Of a DNA stretch of 20,709 nt, positions 3,652-11,760 are shown piece by piece. The first letter of the stretch is position 1; the number at the start of each line of letters is the position of its first letter. Origin of the DNA: a virus. The notes beneath the pieces are model-generated. The model did not search any database. It was not told where the DNA came from and saw only the letters and a program-made list of their open reading frames with translations. The position numbers and the translations under genes were made by a program. The DNA lies in IMG/VR virus record IMGVR_UViG_3300036846_000151, positions 1 through 20,709 of that record, one strand, 5' to 3'.

Positions 3652-4605
3652 ATGGCAATGGAACTGGACCGTCGCTTCAACACCGCCTTCGAGGTCAAGT
3701 TCCTCGGCGATGCATCACCCGGCGCGTTCACCGGCTACGGCTCGGTGTTCAACGTCAAGGACAGTCACGACGACATCATTCTGCCCGGCGCGTTCGCCGA
3801 GACCATGGCGGAACACAAGGCGCGCGGCTCGATGCCGTCGATGCACGCCATGCACTCTCTCTACCTCGGCGGCGACATGCTGCCGGTGGGCGTCTGGCAA
3901 TCGGTCGAGGAAGATGCCCACGGCCTCCACGTCGCAGGCAAGATCAGCGCGCTCAACACCGACACCGGGCGACGCGTCCATGAACTGATGCACGACGGCG
4001 GGCTGCGCGGGCTGTCCATCGTCTATCGCGTGCCGCAGGACGGCGCGAGCTTCACCAAGGAGGGCGAGGGCAAGGCGAAGGTGGAGATCAGGAACATCCA
4101 TCGGCTCAAGCTCCGTGGCATCGACGTGGTGGACGATCCTTCGAACGAGGGCGCGCGGGTCATGGAGATGCGCTCGGCTGGCTTCGGCGCCGAGTTCCTC
4201 GACGAACTGAAGGCAATGCTGTCGCAGTCCGACTCGATGGCCGCCTGCGACGCTATCCAGAAGGCGGCGGCGCTCCATGTGCGCACGACGGCGGGCGGCA
4301 ACTCCCCCACCAGCGAGGATCGCGCCCAGATGCTTGTGCACCTGGACGACGCTCATAAGGCAGCGTCGGGCGGGAAGTCCTTGCCATCTGGCACAAAATC
4401 ACGTCCTGATACGATCCGCGAATTCGAGACCTACTTGCGGGAGCAATGTGGCCTCTCGGTCCGCGAAGCCCGCAGCGTAGCCGAAGGCGGGTGGAAGTCT
4501 GTGTTTCCGGGACCTCGGGATGAGGGCACGGAGTCAGCCAAGCGCGCCGCAACGATGCTGTCTGAACTTCGTGGCGCCTTGGCAGGATTTACCCTCAATC
4601 CTTGA
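3652..4605 (+). CDS. Prohead maturation protease, HK97/S78 family, with C-terminal extension
   Basis: This protease is expected to act inside the prohead, trimming the capsid N-terminal scaffold domain and then itself. The first 180 residues look like the S78 prohead protease fold: AFTGYGSVFNVKDSHDDIILPGAF (25-48), a histidine-containing SMHAMHS (63-69, H65 or H68 as catalytic candidates), LPVGVW (77-82), and GLSIVYRV with S122 as the likely nucleophile. The remaining ~137 residues form an extension ending in a helical block, TIREFETYLREQ...VREARSVAEGGWKS. AGGAGG (3643-3648) overlaps the portal stop. It is only 3 bases from ATG 3652 but 9 from the in-frame ATG 3658, so translation may begin at 3658, two codons later. 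It lies between portal and capsid genes, as expected. Confidence 0.88.
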   Translation: MAMELDRRFNTAFEVKFLGDASPGAFTGYGSVFNVKDSHDDIILPGAFAETMAEHKARGSMPSMHAMHSLYLGGDMLPVGVWQSVEEDAHGLHVAGKISALNTDTGRRVHELMHDGGLRGLSIVYRVPQDGASFTKEGEGKAKVEIRNIHRLKLRGIDVVDDPSNEGARVMEMRSAGFGAEFLDELKAMLSQSDSMAACDAIQKAAALHVRTTAGGNSPTSEDRAQMLVHLDDAHKAASGGKSLPSGTKSRPDTIREFETYLREQCGLSVREARSVAEGGWKSVFPGPRDEGTESAKRAATMLSELRGALAGFTLNP

Positions 4606-4610
4606 AAGGA
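4605..4610 (+). promoter_or_regulatory. Ribosome binding site of the capsid gene (AAAGGA)
   Basis: AAAGGA directly follows the protease stop (TGA 4603-4605) and sits six bases before ATG 4617. This decides for ATG 4617 over an in-frame TTG at 4602 that overlaps the protease stop. Confidence 0.7.
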
Positions 4611-4616
4611 CCGGCC

Positions 4617-5825
4617 ATGGCTGCCGATGATCCAAACCCGGACGTGGAGCTGAAAAAGCTCGTTGACGACTTCAAGAAGGCCGGCGACGACGTGCGCAAG
4701 TTCGCCGAGACGTCGGCCGCCGAGATGAAAAACCTCGGCGCCATCACAAACGAGACCAAGGAAAAGGCCGACAAGGCGCTCACCGAGATGAACGCGATCG
4801 GCCTGCGCATGACCGACATCGAGCAGAAGATGGTCCGCCGCTCGGGTGCCGATCCGACCGAGCAGCGCAAGACAATCGGCCAGATTGTCGTCGATGATAA
4901 GGGCATCCAGGACCTGATGGAGCGCAAGAACGGCGCCGCCCGCGTCATCGTCGAGATGAAGGATATCATGTCCGGGCCGGGAAGCTGGGGCTCTGGCGTC
5001 TCGCCGACGTCGTCCCTGGTGGTCGCGGAGCGCGTGCCGATCATCCAGCCGCCGATGCGTCAGCTTGTCGTCCGGGACCTATTGATGCCCGGCACCACGG
5101 CGTCAAATGCCATCGAGTATCCGGTCGAAACCGATGATCCCGCGAGCACGGCAGCGGCGCCGGTCTCCGAGGGGGCGCGCAAGCCGCAGTCCGACATCAG
5201 GTTCGATCTGCGCAATGTGCCGGTCCGGACCATCGCCCACTTCATGAAGGCGAGCCGTCAGATCCTCGACGATGCGCCCATGCTGATGAGCTACATCGAC
5301 GGCCGGCTGGTCTATGGCCTCGGTTACGCCGAGGAATTCCAACTGCTCTATGGCGATGGCACAGGACAAAACCTGCTCGGCATCATCCCGCAGGCGACCG
5401 CCTACGTCGCAGCCTTCGCGCCGACGAACCCCACCAACATCGACACGCTGCGTCTCGCCTCGCTGCAAGCCACGAACGCCTACTATCCGGCGACCGGCTA
5501 TACCTTGCACCCGACCGATTGGGCCAAGATCGAACTCACCAAGGACACGCAGGGGCGCTACATCGTCGGACAGCCGGAGACCGAGATCGCGGCGCGCCTG
5601 TGGGGCCTCCCGGTCGTGCAGACCCCTGCTATGCAGGTCGGGCACTTCCTGACCGGCTCCTTCCGTCTCGCGGCGCAAATCTTCGACCGCATGCAGAAGG
5701 AGGTCATGATCAGCACCGAGGATCAGGACAATTTCGTGCGCAACATGGTAACGATCAGGGCCGAGGAACGGCTAGCTCTTGCCGTCTACCGGCCTGCCGC
5801 CTTCATCTACGGCACGCTGACCTAA
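4617..5825 (+). CDS. Major capsid protein, HK97 gp5 family
   Basis: This is the shell subunit of the icosahedral head. The 402-residue product starts with a charged, lysine/glutamate-rich helical segment (about residues 8-74). It looks like the HK97 delta (scaffolding) domain, which is removed during maturation. The HK97-fold core follows. A glycine-rich stretch at 119-128 may mark the junction or E-loop region. After it come VRDLLMPGTT, TDDPASTAAAPVSEGARKPQSDIRF, a YAEEFQLLYGDGTGQNLLGI block, and the C-terminal VTIRAEERLALAVYRPAAFIYG typical of the family. No scaffold gene is present, consistent with the HK97 strategy. Start ATG 4617 is supported by AAAGGA six bases upstream. The exact protease cleavage point and any covalent cross-link residues cannot be assigned from this view. 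Confidence 0.95.
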   Translation: MAADDPNPDVELKKLVDDFKKAGDDVRKFAETSAAEMKNLGAITNETKEKADKALTEMNAIGLRMTDIEQKMVRRSGADPTEQRKTIGQIVVDDKGIQDLMERKNGAARVIVEMKDIMSGPGSWGSGVSPTSSLVVAERVPIIQPPMRQLVVRDLLMPGTTASNAIEYPVETDDPASTAAAPVSEGARKPQSDIRFDLRNVPVRTIAHFMKASRQILDDAPMLMSYIDGRLVYGLGYAEEFQLLYGDGTGQNLLGIIPQATAYVAAFAPTNPTNIDTLRLASLQATNAYYPATGYTLHPTDWAKIELTKDTQGRYIVGQPETEIAARLWGLPVVQTPAMQVGHFLTGSFRLAAQIFDRMQKEVMISTEDQDNFVRNMVTIRAEERLALAVYRPAAFIYGTLT

Positions 5826-5958: not shown

Positions 5959-6219
5959 ATGCGCATGAAGGCACTGAGGCCGTGGATCAACTGGGACCAC
6001 GAGGGCATCGTCCATGCGGGCCAGTTCTTCGAGGCCACGGAGCGCCGCGCGCGGGAATTGCGCCTCTCTGGTCTGGCCGAGCCTTCCCTCGAAGGCGCAA
6101 CCGTCATGGTGGTCCCGGACCCTCCCGTGCGGCGCGACGAACCCGTGCCGAAGCAGCCGCGCCGGTCTTCCTTCGCGCGCCGTGGGGCCTCGGAGATGCC
6201 ATCTACGTCCGTCCGCTGA
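5959..6219 (+). CDS. Small hypothetical protein downstream of the capsid gene
   Basis: The product has 86 residues and a very strong start: ATG 5959 five bases after GGGAGGG. The first ~60 residues resemble short head-associated proteins found beside HK97-type capsid genes: a short beta-rich N-terminus, GIVHAGQFFEATERRARELRLSGLAEP, then a proline-rich tail. Role is unknown; a small virion or head accessory protein is an inference from position. The codon pattern (G/C in third position) looks genuine to about base 6158 and deteriorates afterwards, where the residues SSFARRGASEMPSTSVR look like an out-of-frame reading of the following glycosyltransferase. The true coding signal may therefore shift by -1 near 6150-6165 into that gene rather than end at 6219. 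Confidence 0.6.
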   Translation: MRMKALRPWINWDHEGIVHAGQFFEATERRARELRLSGLAEPSLEGATVMVVPDPPVRRDEPVPKQPRRSSFARRGASEMPSTSVR

Positions 6220-7067
6220 TCGAGGACGCCGCCGCGCGTCGGCGGGTCTGGCTCGAAACGCCCTGGCCCGAACTCTATGAGGACCTGCCGCTCGCCGGCT
6301 ACGTGAAGGGCGAGAAGGGCCTGCTCATGCAGATGCGCAACGTGTGGCGTCAGCCGCCCGAGCGCTGGTCGCCTCACCCCACGGGGCTCCCGGAGGTCGC
6401 GCTCGGCTACGGGGCGCTCGAAATGGACAACGGCGTGTTCGCTGCTATGGAGGCGAAGCTGCCGATGCGATCGGGCGTGCAACCGCGATGGACCCTTCCG
6501 GAACTCGGCCCATCACCGATCCGCTCGGCAGCACCCATCGCCCTGGTGCGCCCGGTCATGCGCCGACTCGAATGGGACAATGAGGCGCGTAACCCTCGAC
6601 CGGAATACGTGGCGCACATCGCAGCCGACTTGAAGGCGCGGGGCTACGCCGTCGTGGTCGTCTGCGACATATCCCCGAACGAGCGCCCGGTCGGCGGTCT
6701 GCCGCCGCACAACATCGCCTTCACCAACGGCGAGATGACGCCCTGCCAGTTGCTCGCCACGATGCGGGACTCGGCTGTCGTCGTCGGCGGTGTCGGATGG
6801 ATCGTGCCGGCCGCCGTGGCGCTCGGCGTGCCCACGTTCGTCGTCCTCGGTGGCAACGGCGGCATGAACGCACCTGAGAAGCTGATCGACCGGCGCATGC
6901 CGTCAGGCCACATTGGGTTCGCCAAACCGGAGAGATTCTGCCGATGCATGGACATGCACCACAACTGCGACAAGACAATCAACGACATCGACGGACAGTG
7001 GCGGCGCTGGCGCAGCCGGTCGCTGCCCGCCCCGAGCTTTTCGAGGTCGCAGCGCGCGATCGCCTGA
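6159..7067 (+). CDS. Glycosyltransferase-like protein (GT-B / heptosyltransferase-like), start unresolved
   Basis: This is predicted to transfer a sugar from a nucleotide donor; acceptor and sugar are unknown. Counting from 6159, residues 3-13 (VFLRAPWGLGD) resemble the first strand and loop of GT9/ADP-heptose transferase-like enzymes. The C-terminal Rossmann half runs through GEMTPCQLLATMRDSAVVVGG and VGWIVPAAVALGVPTFVVLGG (about 209-232). The usual family motif with a histidine before the alanine-rich helix is not seen. A CxC-x6-C cluster follows (about 261-270). The frame stays open upstream to 5856, but the nearest in-frame starts are GTG 5982 and ATG 5895, both far inside sequence that reads as an out-of-frame shadow of the 5959 gene. 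Expression by frame change from that gene, an unusual start, or a sequence error are all possible. It overlaps the methyltransferase gene. Confidence 0.7.
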   Translation, partial: APVFLRAPWGLGDAIYVRPLIEDAAARRRVWLETPWPELYEDLPLAGYVKGEKGLLMQMRNVWRQPPERWSPHPTGLPEVALGYGALEMDNGVFAAMEAKLPMRSGVQPRWTLPELGPSPIRSAAPIALVRPVMRRLEWDNEARNPRPEYVAHIAADLKARGYAVVVVCDISPNERPVGGLPPHNIAFTNGEMTPCQLLATMRDSAVVVGGVGWIVPAAVALGVPTFVVLGGNGGMNAPEKLIDRRMPSGHIGFAKPERFCRCMDMHHNCDKTINDIDGQWRRWRSRSLPAPSFSRSQRAIA

Positions 7068-7648
7068 TCTGGATCCCAAAGATCGGCGTCGGCTACCTGG
7101 ATGTCCCTGCCGGCATCGACGCATACGACAAAGCCTACTTCGACAAGTATGCCCGCTATGCCGCGACCGACCTTGGCAGGAAGCTCACCAAGGCGCGCAT
7201 CGAACTCGTCGCGCGGCACTGGAAGGGACCGCTGCTGGACATCGGCATCGGCTGCGGCCAGTTCGTCCAGAGCCGGCCCGACACCCTCGGCTACGACGTG
7301 AATCCGGCCGGCATCGACTGGCTGACCGAGCGCGGCCTCTGGTCGAACCCATGGATGGAGACCGTCCAGGCCGCCTCCCTCTGGGACGTGCTCGAGCACA
7401 TCCCCGACTTCGACCAACTGCTCGACCAGATCGAGAAGATGGTATTCTGCTGTCTTCCGGTCTTTGCTGGACCGGAGCAAGTTCTCGCCTCGAAGCACTA
7501 CCGACCTGACGAACACTGCTGGTATTTCACCATGCGCGGCTTCATCAACACGATGCGCGACCTTGGCTGGATGATGGTCGAAACCTCGATGATGGAGACC
7601 ATGCTCGGCCGCGATGGAATCGCTTCCTTCGCGTTCCAGAGGCCCTGA
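6998..7648 (+). CDS. Class I SAM-dependent methyltransferase
   Basis: This protein is predicted to transfer a methyl group from S-adenosylmethionine. The 216-residue reading shows motif I LLDIGIGCGQF (79-89) with a downstream acidic GYD (98-100), a motif-IV-like LWDVLEHIPDFDQLL (128-142), and a C-terminal DEHCWYFTMRGFINTMRDLGW typical of small-molecule and sugar methyltransferases rather than DNA methylases. No N6A (DPPY-type) or C5 (PC) DNA-methylase motif is visible. GTG 6998 is my preferred start because upstream codons to the alternative ATG 6944 are a shadow of the glycosyltransferase tail; GTG still overlaps that gene by 70 bases. The stop overlaps the next start (TGATG). Pairing with the glycosyltransferase suggests methylation of a transferred sugar. 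That is an inference. Confidence 0.8.
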   Translation: MAALAQPVAARPELFEVAARDRLIWIPKIGVGYLDVPAGIDAYDKAYFDKYARYAATDLGRKLTKARIELVARHWKGPLLDIGIGCGQFVQSRPDTLGYDVNPAGIDWLTERGLWSNPWMETVQAASLWDVLEHIPDFDQLLDQIEKMVFCCLPVFAGPEQVLASKHYRPDEHCWYFTMRGFINTMRDLGWMMVETSMMETMLGRDGIASFAFQRP

Positions 7649-8349
7649 TGCACTCGTTCCTGACCGTTGTGACGCCTCCGACCAACCGCGACCTCACCAC
7701 GCTGGCGACGGTCAAGGACGAGCTTGGCATCGTGAAGTCCAACACCGACCGGAAGCTCCGGCGTTGGATCACCGAATGCTCGGATCAGATCGTCACCTAC
7801 ATCGACCGGCAGTTGGCGCGGCAGACCGCCACCGAGACCTTCCGCCAGTGGCCGACCACGACCTCAATCTGGTCCATGATCAACATGCCATCGCCGGTCG
7901 ATCCCGGCTGGGCGGGCGGCTGGTGGCACTCGAACCCGATTCGCCTCTCGATTCGCCCGGTTGAGTCGATCGAGTCCGTGACCGAGGACGGAGTCGTTCT
8001 CGATCCGTCCCTCTATGCCTTCGACAGCGACTCGGGCTTGGTCTGGAAGCTGTCGGATGACGGGTCGGGCTACCATGTGCCGTTCTGCGGCGGCCACATC
8101 GCGGTCACCTACATCGGGGGTTACAAGCTGCCCTCCGACCCGGCGCTCCCGTCGAACATCTCGCGGTCCTGCCTGCTGCTGATGCGGCATCGCTGGTGGG
8201 GCGACGACAAGGACCCGATGATCCGCCAGGAGAACGTGCCGGGCATCCTTGAGACGATCTATGTCACCACGGCGCCAGGGGACGATGCCTCCATGCCACC
8301 GGAAGCCTGCGGCCTCCTGGAAGCCTACCGGCACATCGAGGTTCCCTGA
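7648..8349 (+). CDS. Head-tail connector, gp6-like adaptor
   Basis: This protein should form the adaptor ring beneath the portal, the first layer of the neck. The 233-residue product begins with the family pattern LTTLATVKDELGIVKSNTDRKLRRWITECSDQIVTYIDRQL (about 16-56), two helices as in the HK97 gp6/SPP1 gp15-type connectors. A beta-rich middle with IRPVESIESV and VTYIGGYKLPSDPALPSNIS follows, then a helical C-terminus. Length is slightly above the usual 180-220. The ATG overlaps the methyltransferase stop (TGATG), and AGAGG (7638-7642) lies five bases upstream. Position immediately before the other neck genes agrees with the call. Confidence 0.75.
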   Translation: MHSFLTVVTPPTNRDLTTLATVKDELGIVKSNTDRKLRRWITECSDQIVTYIDRQLARQTATETFRQWPTTTSIWSMINMPSPVDPGWAGGWWHSNPIRLSIRPVESIESVTEDGVVLDPSLYAFDSDSGLVWKLSDDGSGYHVPFCGGHIAVTYIGGYKLPSDPALPSNISRSCLLLMRHRWWGDDKDPMIRQENVPGILETIYVTTAPGDDASMPPEACGLLEAYRHIEVP

Positions 8350-9642: not shown

Positions 9643-9678
9643 GCGGACAGAAAGGGTAAAAACGATGAGCGGCCAGAA
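9639..9678 (+). repeat. Duplicated start region (ATGAGCGG[A/C]CAGAA)
   Basis: ATGAGCGGACAGAA (9639-9652) is repeated at 9665-9678 with one mismatch, 26 bases apart. The first copy overlaps the terminator-like stop and opens a six-codon frame (MSGQKG, stop 9657-9659). The second is the start of the proline-rich gene (MSGQN). It looks like a small tandem duplication of a translation start. Confidence 0.6.
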
Positions 9679-9937
9679 TCCCGACCCAGCGGGCGCCACA
9701 GGCGGCACAGGAGCCACGGGCGGCACAGGTGCGGCGCAGGAGCCGCAGCCCGCCACGGGTCAACCTGCTGAGCCAGCGCCCGGCACCGGCGCGCCTGAGC
9801 CACCGCCACCGCCACCACCGCCACCTCCGCAGCCTCAACAGGACGACGCTGAGACAGAACGGCAGCGGATCAGGCAGCCGCATGAGGAAGATGCCGACAT
9901 CGGCAAGAAGGACGACGAGCCGGCCAAGGAGGCGTGA
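9665..9937 (+). CDS. Small collagen-like / poly-proline protein
   Basis: No known function is recognised. The 90 residues are low-complexity and probably disordered. A Gly-x-y segment (GAT GGT GAT GGT GAA, about residues 10-24) is encoded by two 18-base repeats (9692-9709, 9710-9727). Then comes a proline/alanine-rich stretch with ten consecutive prolines (9800-9829). The tail is highly charged (ETERQRIRQPHEEDADIGKKDDEPAKEA). Third-position G/C use and position between terminator-like and tail tube genes support a real gene. The ten-proline run should stall ribosomes unless elongation factor P acts. Start ATG 9665 follows an AAAGGG-type purine stretch (9651-9656). Confidence 0.65.
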   Translation: MSGQNPDPAGATGGTGATGGTGAAQEPQPATGQPAEPAPGTGAPEPPPPPPPPPPQPQQDDAETERQRIRQPHEEDADIGKKDDEPAKEA

Positions 9938-11295: not shown

Positions 11296-11760
11296 GTGGT
11301 ATCCATCGATGCCTTCCGATCCGACAGCCGCGCCATCAACGAGGGCGACTGGGTGCGCGTGGACGAGGCCCGCTATGGCGACCTCGAAATCCTGACGCGC
11401 GGTTTCACCGACGACTTCGTGGATGCGCAGAACCAGCGCACCGAGAAGCTCGCCGAGGCGCACATGGGCGACCGCACGCGCATCGCCAATTCCGAGATGC
11501 GCAAGCTCAATGCCTCGCTGCTTGAGGACTACCTGATCCTCGACGTGCGCAACCTGACCGACGACAAGGGCGAGCCGGTCTCGGTCGGGCTATTCCACGC
11601 AATGCTCTATCAGCCGGAATACTCCCGACTCCAGCGGGCGGCGTGGGTCGCGGCAGCGCGCATCTCCACTCGCTCGGTTCAGCAGTTGGACGAAGCAAGG
11701 GGAAACTCGCTACTGCCCTCCGGGTCTACCTCGAATGGGGCAACCTCCGCGCTAAACTGA
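11296..11760 (+). CDS. Tail assembly chaperone, short form (gpG-like)
   Basis: This protein is predicted to bind the tape measure during tail assembly and to be absent from finished virions. The 154-residue protein starts at GTG 11296, preceded by AGGAGA at ideal spacing. It is mainly helical and acidic: AFRSDSRAINEGDWVRVDE, an EILTRGFTDDFVDAQNQRTEKLAEAHMGDRTRIANSEMRKLN block, then LLEDYLILDVRNL. These features fit the first of the two chaperone frames. The identification rests on position (after the tube, before the tape measure) and on a GGGAAAC slippery site at 11700-11706 that leads into the overlapping second frame. The last ~17 codons after the slip site look like poor coding sequence, as expected if the extended form matters too. 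Confidence 0.8.
   Translation: MVSIDAFRSDSRAINEGDWVRVDEARYGDLEILTRGFTDDFVDAQNQRTEKLAEAHMGDRTRIANSEMRKLNASLLEDYLILDVRNLTDDKGEPVSVGLFHAMLYQPEYSRLQRAAWVAAARISTRSVQQLDEARGNSLLPSGSTSNGATSALN

Follow-up and report, generated by a model that had tools for sequence, protein, structure and literature searches.

Organization of the head gene block

The window analyzed here is the complete 20,709-base stretch of virus record IMGVR_UViG_3300036846_000151, and it contains, in order, genes for a terminase, portal, protease, HK97-type capsid, a small post-capsid protein (SM), a glycosyltransferase (GT), a methyltransferase (MT) and a connector. The major capsid protein gene (4602..5825; this and the following features through to the connector are on the + strand) is identified by Pfam Phage_capsid (5.8e-58) and NCBIfam TIGR01554, and is followed by the SM gene (5959..6219; 86 aa). 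The GT reading frame (6123..7067) lies in the −1 frame relative to SM, with a core at 6165..7067, and the MT gene (6998..7648) starts at GTG 6998 or alternatively at ATG 6944, such that the GT and MT coding regions overlap by 70 nt or 124 nt, respectively. The next head-block gene (7648..8349; phrog_442, 8.9e-20) encodes a head-tail connector/adaptor. An earlier note, made from the sequence alone, described overlapping glycosyltransferase and class I methyltransferase genes between an HK97-type capsid gene and a connector gene; both genes are real and both enzyme calls are right. Position 5959 is the start of the SM open reading frame and not that of GT.

SM is conserved over its first 56 residues among 19 aligned relatives and has a weak match to phrog_933 (0.0025). 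Its AlphaFold2 model has a mean pLDDT of 69, with approximately residues 1–43 ordered (74–87), the remainder low, and the tail predicted to be disordered. A fold search gave nothing below E 0.1, the best weak likenesses being to GINS, the ribosomal protein L9 N-domain and YqbF. With SM as the query for further loci of the window type, only the contig of the related locus L002 was recovered again, and among 385 genomes drawn from the class to which the Mesorhizobium strain belongs, that strain alone gave a match. Two sister phages (L008, 2406–3101; L059, 3137–3700) have genes between SM and GT encoding proteins of repeated PDQGLP units, and three have HNH-endonuclease-like genes, probably homing inserts, between the capsid gene and SM (L089, 4834–5718; L010, 3354–3746; L115, 4784–5737). 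The genes inserted between capsid or SM and GT in L008, L010, L089, L115 and others are HNH-type inserts, repeat proteins or lysis-like genes, and not the sialyltransferase-like gene (ST) considered below.

Glycosyltransferase and methyltransferase

Profile searches, as the earlier note had proposed, match GT to phrog_6804 (2.3e-71), a family with no function given, and MT to phrog_6564 (6.8e-68). GT matches no Pfam family at E≤1, and hence not the Glyco_transf_9 profile; by sequence, a profile built from 25 GT relatives matched only 1psw (E 0.039). Its AlphaFold2 model is of high quality (mean pLDDT 91.2, pTM 0.89) and has a WaaC/WaaF-type GT-B fold, the best Foldseek matches being heptosyltransferase II (1psw, E 2.6e-8) and TibC (4rap, E 1.3e-7, TM up to 0.65), with further matches to the heptosyltransferase structures 2gt1 and 2h1h. 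The Asp of a GLGD motif (core residue 11; 6195..6197) is invariant in 25 sequences and is a candidate catalytic base by analogy with GT9 enzymes and with Asp-110 of TibC. A C-x-C-x4-H-x-C motif near the C-terminus (6939..6968), in which C259, C261, H266 and C268 are invariant in the same number of sequences, is a candidate metal site. TibC transfers heptose onto autotransporter proteins, has a beta-barrel at residues 1–97, and holds iron through Cys 339, 342, 358 and 370 (PMC4358343). Both the four-Cys iron finger and the N-terminal beta-barrel are absent from GT, which may work like TibC, yet is not classified as a TibC-type (BAHT) member.

MT scores above the curated cut-off for Pfam Methyltransf_23 (1.3e-7; 32 bits versus 27) and has an invariant glycine-rich D-x-G-x-G-x-G-x-F motif (D81, G83, G85, G87), placing it among the class I SAM-dependent methyltransferases.

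Phage-encoded glycosyltransferases acting on modified bases are known, and GT and MT could in principle act on the phage's own DNA. This is very improbable, as the two genes sit among capsid and connector genes and the fold of GT is nearest to those of heptosyltransferases and TibC; a gene for hydroxymethyl-pyrimidine synthesis is also not recognized in the window, a weak point given that the window is only part of the genome.

Distribution of the GT–MT pair

In tblastn searches GT and MT are found in 29–30 phage records, the two sets of records being identical but for one, and these include Pseudomonas phages D3, PMG1, PAJU2 and Psp6, Enterobacter phage Mulvp2, Klebsiella phage Eowyn and Synechococcus phage BUCT-ZZ01. 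Among viral contigs there are 71 close and more than 500 wider relatives, and the pair is far beyond chance. The earlier note had suggested a survey of co-occurrence, and every one of the 81 distinct loci whose sequence extends far enough has MT downstream of GT; because the genes are inseparable, joint action of their products is likely. ST is present upstream as a third gene in 47 of the 81 loci, and 32 have SM without ST; none of the 14 contigs of the window's clade has ST.

The pair in the window is of the phrog_6804 plus phrog_6564 type, like orf12 and orf13 of phage D3, and its position varies. It is between the capsid and connector genes in the window's clade and Psp6, 3′ of the head-closure gene in D3 and PAJU2, 3′ of the connector gene in a large group of uncultured phages, and near gp14 in a T4-like phage. 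In Eowyn, ST, GT and MT form an isolated operon with no recognized head genes flanking it, which, together with the usual role of GT9 heptosyltransferases in building the LPS core (1psw and the WaaC matches), is what would be expected if the enzymes modified LPS or another host surface glycan against superinfection and the position in the head block were incidental. We consider this unlikely: most loci are situated among head and neck genes with expected late expression, TibC modifies protein (PMC4358343), and fusion of the enzyme to a post-capsid protein, as proposed below, would be purposeless for LPS modification.

The match to the TibC fold and the usual place in the head or neck block favor a virion protein as the acceptor of GT, in preference to host LPS or DNA, and on balance we lean towards this assignment. 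The earlier proposal that the pair adds a sugar, possibly methylated, to a virion protein is partly supported, through the enzyme calls, the inseparability of the genes, the TibC-like fold and the location in the head block, but not in the ‘collagen-like’ protein, one of the three candidate acceptors that it named. That open reading frame (9665–9937) is Pro/Thr/Gly-rich and of low complexity, and is rejected as a conserved acceptor since sister phages have a different gene at this position. The genes found at this place in sister phages have an Ig-like look.

Missing start codon of GT

GT has no evident start codon of its own. ATG, GTG and TTG are absent from the 25 codons 5′ of the core, no NTG codon of any kind (thus including CTG) is present among the last 30, and the only in-frame starts in the window are near the beginning of SM, for example a GTG ~58 codons upstream of the core. 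The two closest relatives, L002 and L003 (73% and 64% GT identity to the window), likewise have no ATG, GTG or TTG within 25 codons of the core. In all three, GT is in the −1 frame of SM and the SM stop codon is 55 nt past the start of the GT core; this exact arrangement is confined to these three loci, which are mutually related. In lacking a start codon and being read, as the downstream open reading frame, in the −1 register, GT in the window has the form of a −1 frameshift gene.

A candidate −1 slip site, C CCT CCC (6120..6126), is located at SM codon 55 within a conserved GAC CCT CC, which is at codon 55 in L002 and at codon 57 in L003; the window and L002 have GAC CCT CCC at the slip codon and L003 has GAC CCT CCG. 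CCT is rare in all three, accounting for 7.9%, 6.7% and 1.9% of proline codons in the window, L002 and L003, respectively. The heptamer differs from the canonical X XXY YYZ, and only the first (P-site) tRNA re-pairs well. No stimulatory RNA structure was found 3′ of the slip site in the window (z 0.02, no conserved stem). A shift at 6121–6123 would join SM residues 1–55 to 314 further residues in a product of 369 aa. No natural in-frame fusion of SM with an enzyme (SM–ST) was found.

GT could instead be expressed without frameshifting, starting at a non-standard codon or, in a frame that overlaps SM completely, at the GTG close to the beginning of SM, with its translation coupled to that of SM and its role in virion glycosylation unchanged. 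Ordinary coupling is indeed used in the window's clade, where many sister loci have a TTGA or GTGA start/stop overlap or a separate ATG for GT, and the upstream GTG is available. However, SM itself is conserved and the −1 frame that overlies it only poorly so (identities 5′ of the slip codon are 40 versus 27, 31 versus 20 and 32 versus 19 for the SM and −1 frames), and the 30 codons immediately 5′ of the core offer none of the four NTG codons; in many ST relatives, moreover, the −1 frame is closed by a stop shortly before the core (see below). We regard a start without frameshifting as improbable, though less so than an action on host glycans, and a frameshifted SM–GT fusion in the window as fairly probable. 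SM is accordingly more probably the N-terminal carrier of GT than a mere neighbor or an acceptor.

The sister loci show that a −1 relationship by itself is no proof of frameshifting, as the same relationship arises whenever a TTG or GTG start codon overlaps with the stop codon of SM; L020, L086, L089, L096, L099 and others start GT in this way, and the notion that every −1 SM–GT overlap is a frameshift is rejected. Among 25 distinct SM–GT neighbors in the clade, C_CCT is present in 5 of the 8 that have no start, as against 2 of the 17 that have a start (Fisher p 0.017, as a guide only because the loci are related). C CCT TTA is the form found in the startless L016 and L017 and also in L115, where the single TTG falls within the core. 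L010 and L093 likewise have no standard start, but they do not contain C CCT. The loci with NTGA overlaps or a separate ATG show that SM–GT fusion is not universal in the clade, and fused expression, as one of several states there, is moderately supported for the window.

A second overlap in the window has the features of a lambda G/GT-kind tail assembly chaperone pair (11296–11760, with the −1 frame extending to 12059) and includes a G GGA AAC heptamer at 11700. From this arrangement, −1 shifting at the tail-chaperone overlap is very probably used by this phage.

A parallel organization in ST relatives

In D3-type phages it is ST that is in the −1 frame of a small post-capsid open reading frame, and its conserved N-terminus, VVCIASGPSL, is readable only in that frame. 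A D3-like capsid gene is upstream in 39 of 41 surveyed ST contigs. ST is annotated as an alpha-2,3-sialyltransferase in D3, PAJU2 and Eowyn and as pmgO in P1; function as a true sialyltransferase is not supported, and as the profile matches solved sialyltransferases only at E 0.8, the name is retained as a label.

Of 66 distinct ST loci, 42 have no start within 30 codons, and in 41 of these ST is in the −1 frame of the covering open reading frame. The 24 loci with a start are different: 17 have no covering open reading frame, and where there is one it is in the −1 relationship in four and +1 in three. In many ST loci a stop codon closes the −1 frame 27–45 nt before the core, which makes an upstream start impossible in those loci and pins the shift to that short stretch. 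The motif C CCT, at its best C CCT TTG, is present in the small open reading frame of 33 of 50 loci needing a −1 shift, compared with 1.84 expected from other long open reading frames on the same contigs; as heptamers, C CCT TTG occurs in 10 of 47 and C CCA AAG in 3 of 47.

The slip motif is followed by a covarying stem-loop, GGCCGCTGGC...GCCAGCGGCC, in which 85.1% of cells are paired across 44 distinct sequences, a level reached by none of 500 shuffles. Eleven cells are changed on both sides, compared with 4.1 in shuffles, and sliding the partner along reduces pairing to at most 57%; RNAalifold alone did not pick this stem. We consider it nearly certain that these ST relatives are made as frameshift fusions to the post-capsid protein.

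The D3 record (L073, NC_002484.2) is affected by this organization, as its annotated orf7 (4111–4662) begins at an ATC codon, and the conserved ST N-terminus, which is in the −1 frame of orf6.5, is lost from the record. Unannotated ST-like open reading frames are present in Mulvp2 (L077, OR508996.1; 5509–5998), directly 5′ of the GT–MT pair, and in Citrobacter phage phiNP (L237, OR565852.1; 3001–3522).

A model for delivery of the enzyme

The favored account of the window is a cassette for virion protein modification in which GT is delivered by programmed −1 frameshifting. Most ribosomes would produce the 86-residue SM, and a minority would shift into the −1 frame at C CCT CCC to yield the SM(1–55)–GT fusion. 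The SM portion would carry a few copies of GT to the head or neck during assembly; there GT would place a sugar on a virion protein, and MT would then methylate the added sugar. The protein acceptor and the methylation of the sugar are suggested by the TibC-like fold, the constant MT partner and the gene position. Glycosylation of virion proteins is known in some mycobacteriophages. The literature surveyed contained no virion glycan data for the window phage or for D3-type phages. Taken as a whole, we judge this account to be evenly poised between right and wrong.

On the simplest reading, SM would bind the head or neck, and a small share of the SM molecules would carry an enzyme; we infer this by analogy with Gag-Pol and with the Ig-like frameshift extensions of phage structural proteins. 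A more general version is that SM acts as a docking head to which a −1 shift attaches ST in D3-type phages or GT in the window, with a limited number of enzymes incorporated into or onto each head as it assembles and glycosylating the virion in place, as in a Gag-Pol strategy. This broader scheme is offered tentatively, and may well not hold in all its parts. Glycosyltransferases made as frameshift extensions of a capsid-neighbor protein would offer a way of directing an enzyme to the head during assembly and explain the missing N-terminus of D3 orf7 in its record. Virion glycosylation across a very large group of phages would also become directly testable with D3-type laboratory phages.

Comparison with known systems

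The new feature is the coupling by frameshift of a glycosyltransferase to a post-capsid protein, which is strongly supported for ST and moderately for the window. The literature surveyed, with subscription journals mostly outside it, contained no phage glycosyltransferase made as a frameshift extension of a capsid-neighbor protein.

The closest systems are D3, PMG1, PAJU2 and Psp6, which have the same GT and MT families adjoining in the head-neck block (orf6.5–orf7–orf12–orf13 in D3). As in the window, D3 and Psp6 have a small open reading frame directly 3′ of the capsid gene with a startless glycosyltransferase in its −1 frame. In D3, however, the frameshifted partner is ST (orf7, annotated from the ATC), and GT (orf12) is further downstream with MT, whereas the window's clade has no ST and GT itself follows SM. 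P1 has a homologue of ST with its own start (pmgO) and an annotated glycosyltransferase (pmgQ), but lacks the post-capsid SM arrangement; both genes were scored as nonessential (PMC10695390), which for pmgO counts against the model. In P1 (L238, 2835–3594) pmgO is overlapped by pmgN, which was essential in the same screen (PMC10695390).

TibC is similar to GT in its GT-B heptosyltransferase-like fold, and it acts on protein and has metal-binding cysteines; it differs in sharing only ~15% identity with GT, whose CxC-x4-HxC motif is near the C-terminus and whose core has no N-terminal barrel. The lambda G/GT proteins and the Ig-like frameshift extensions of phage structural proteins (PMC5009743) are similar in mode of expression, in that a −1 shift extends some copies of a small or structural protein by a further domain, but in the window and in D3-type phages the added domain would be an enzyme rather than a chaperone or Ig-like domain.
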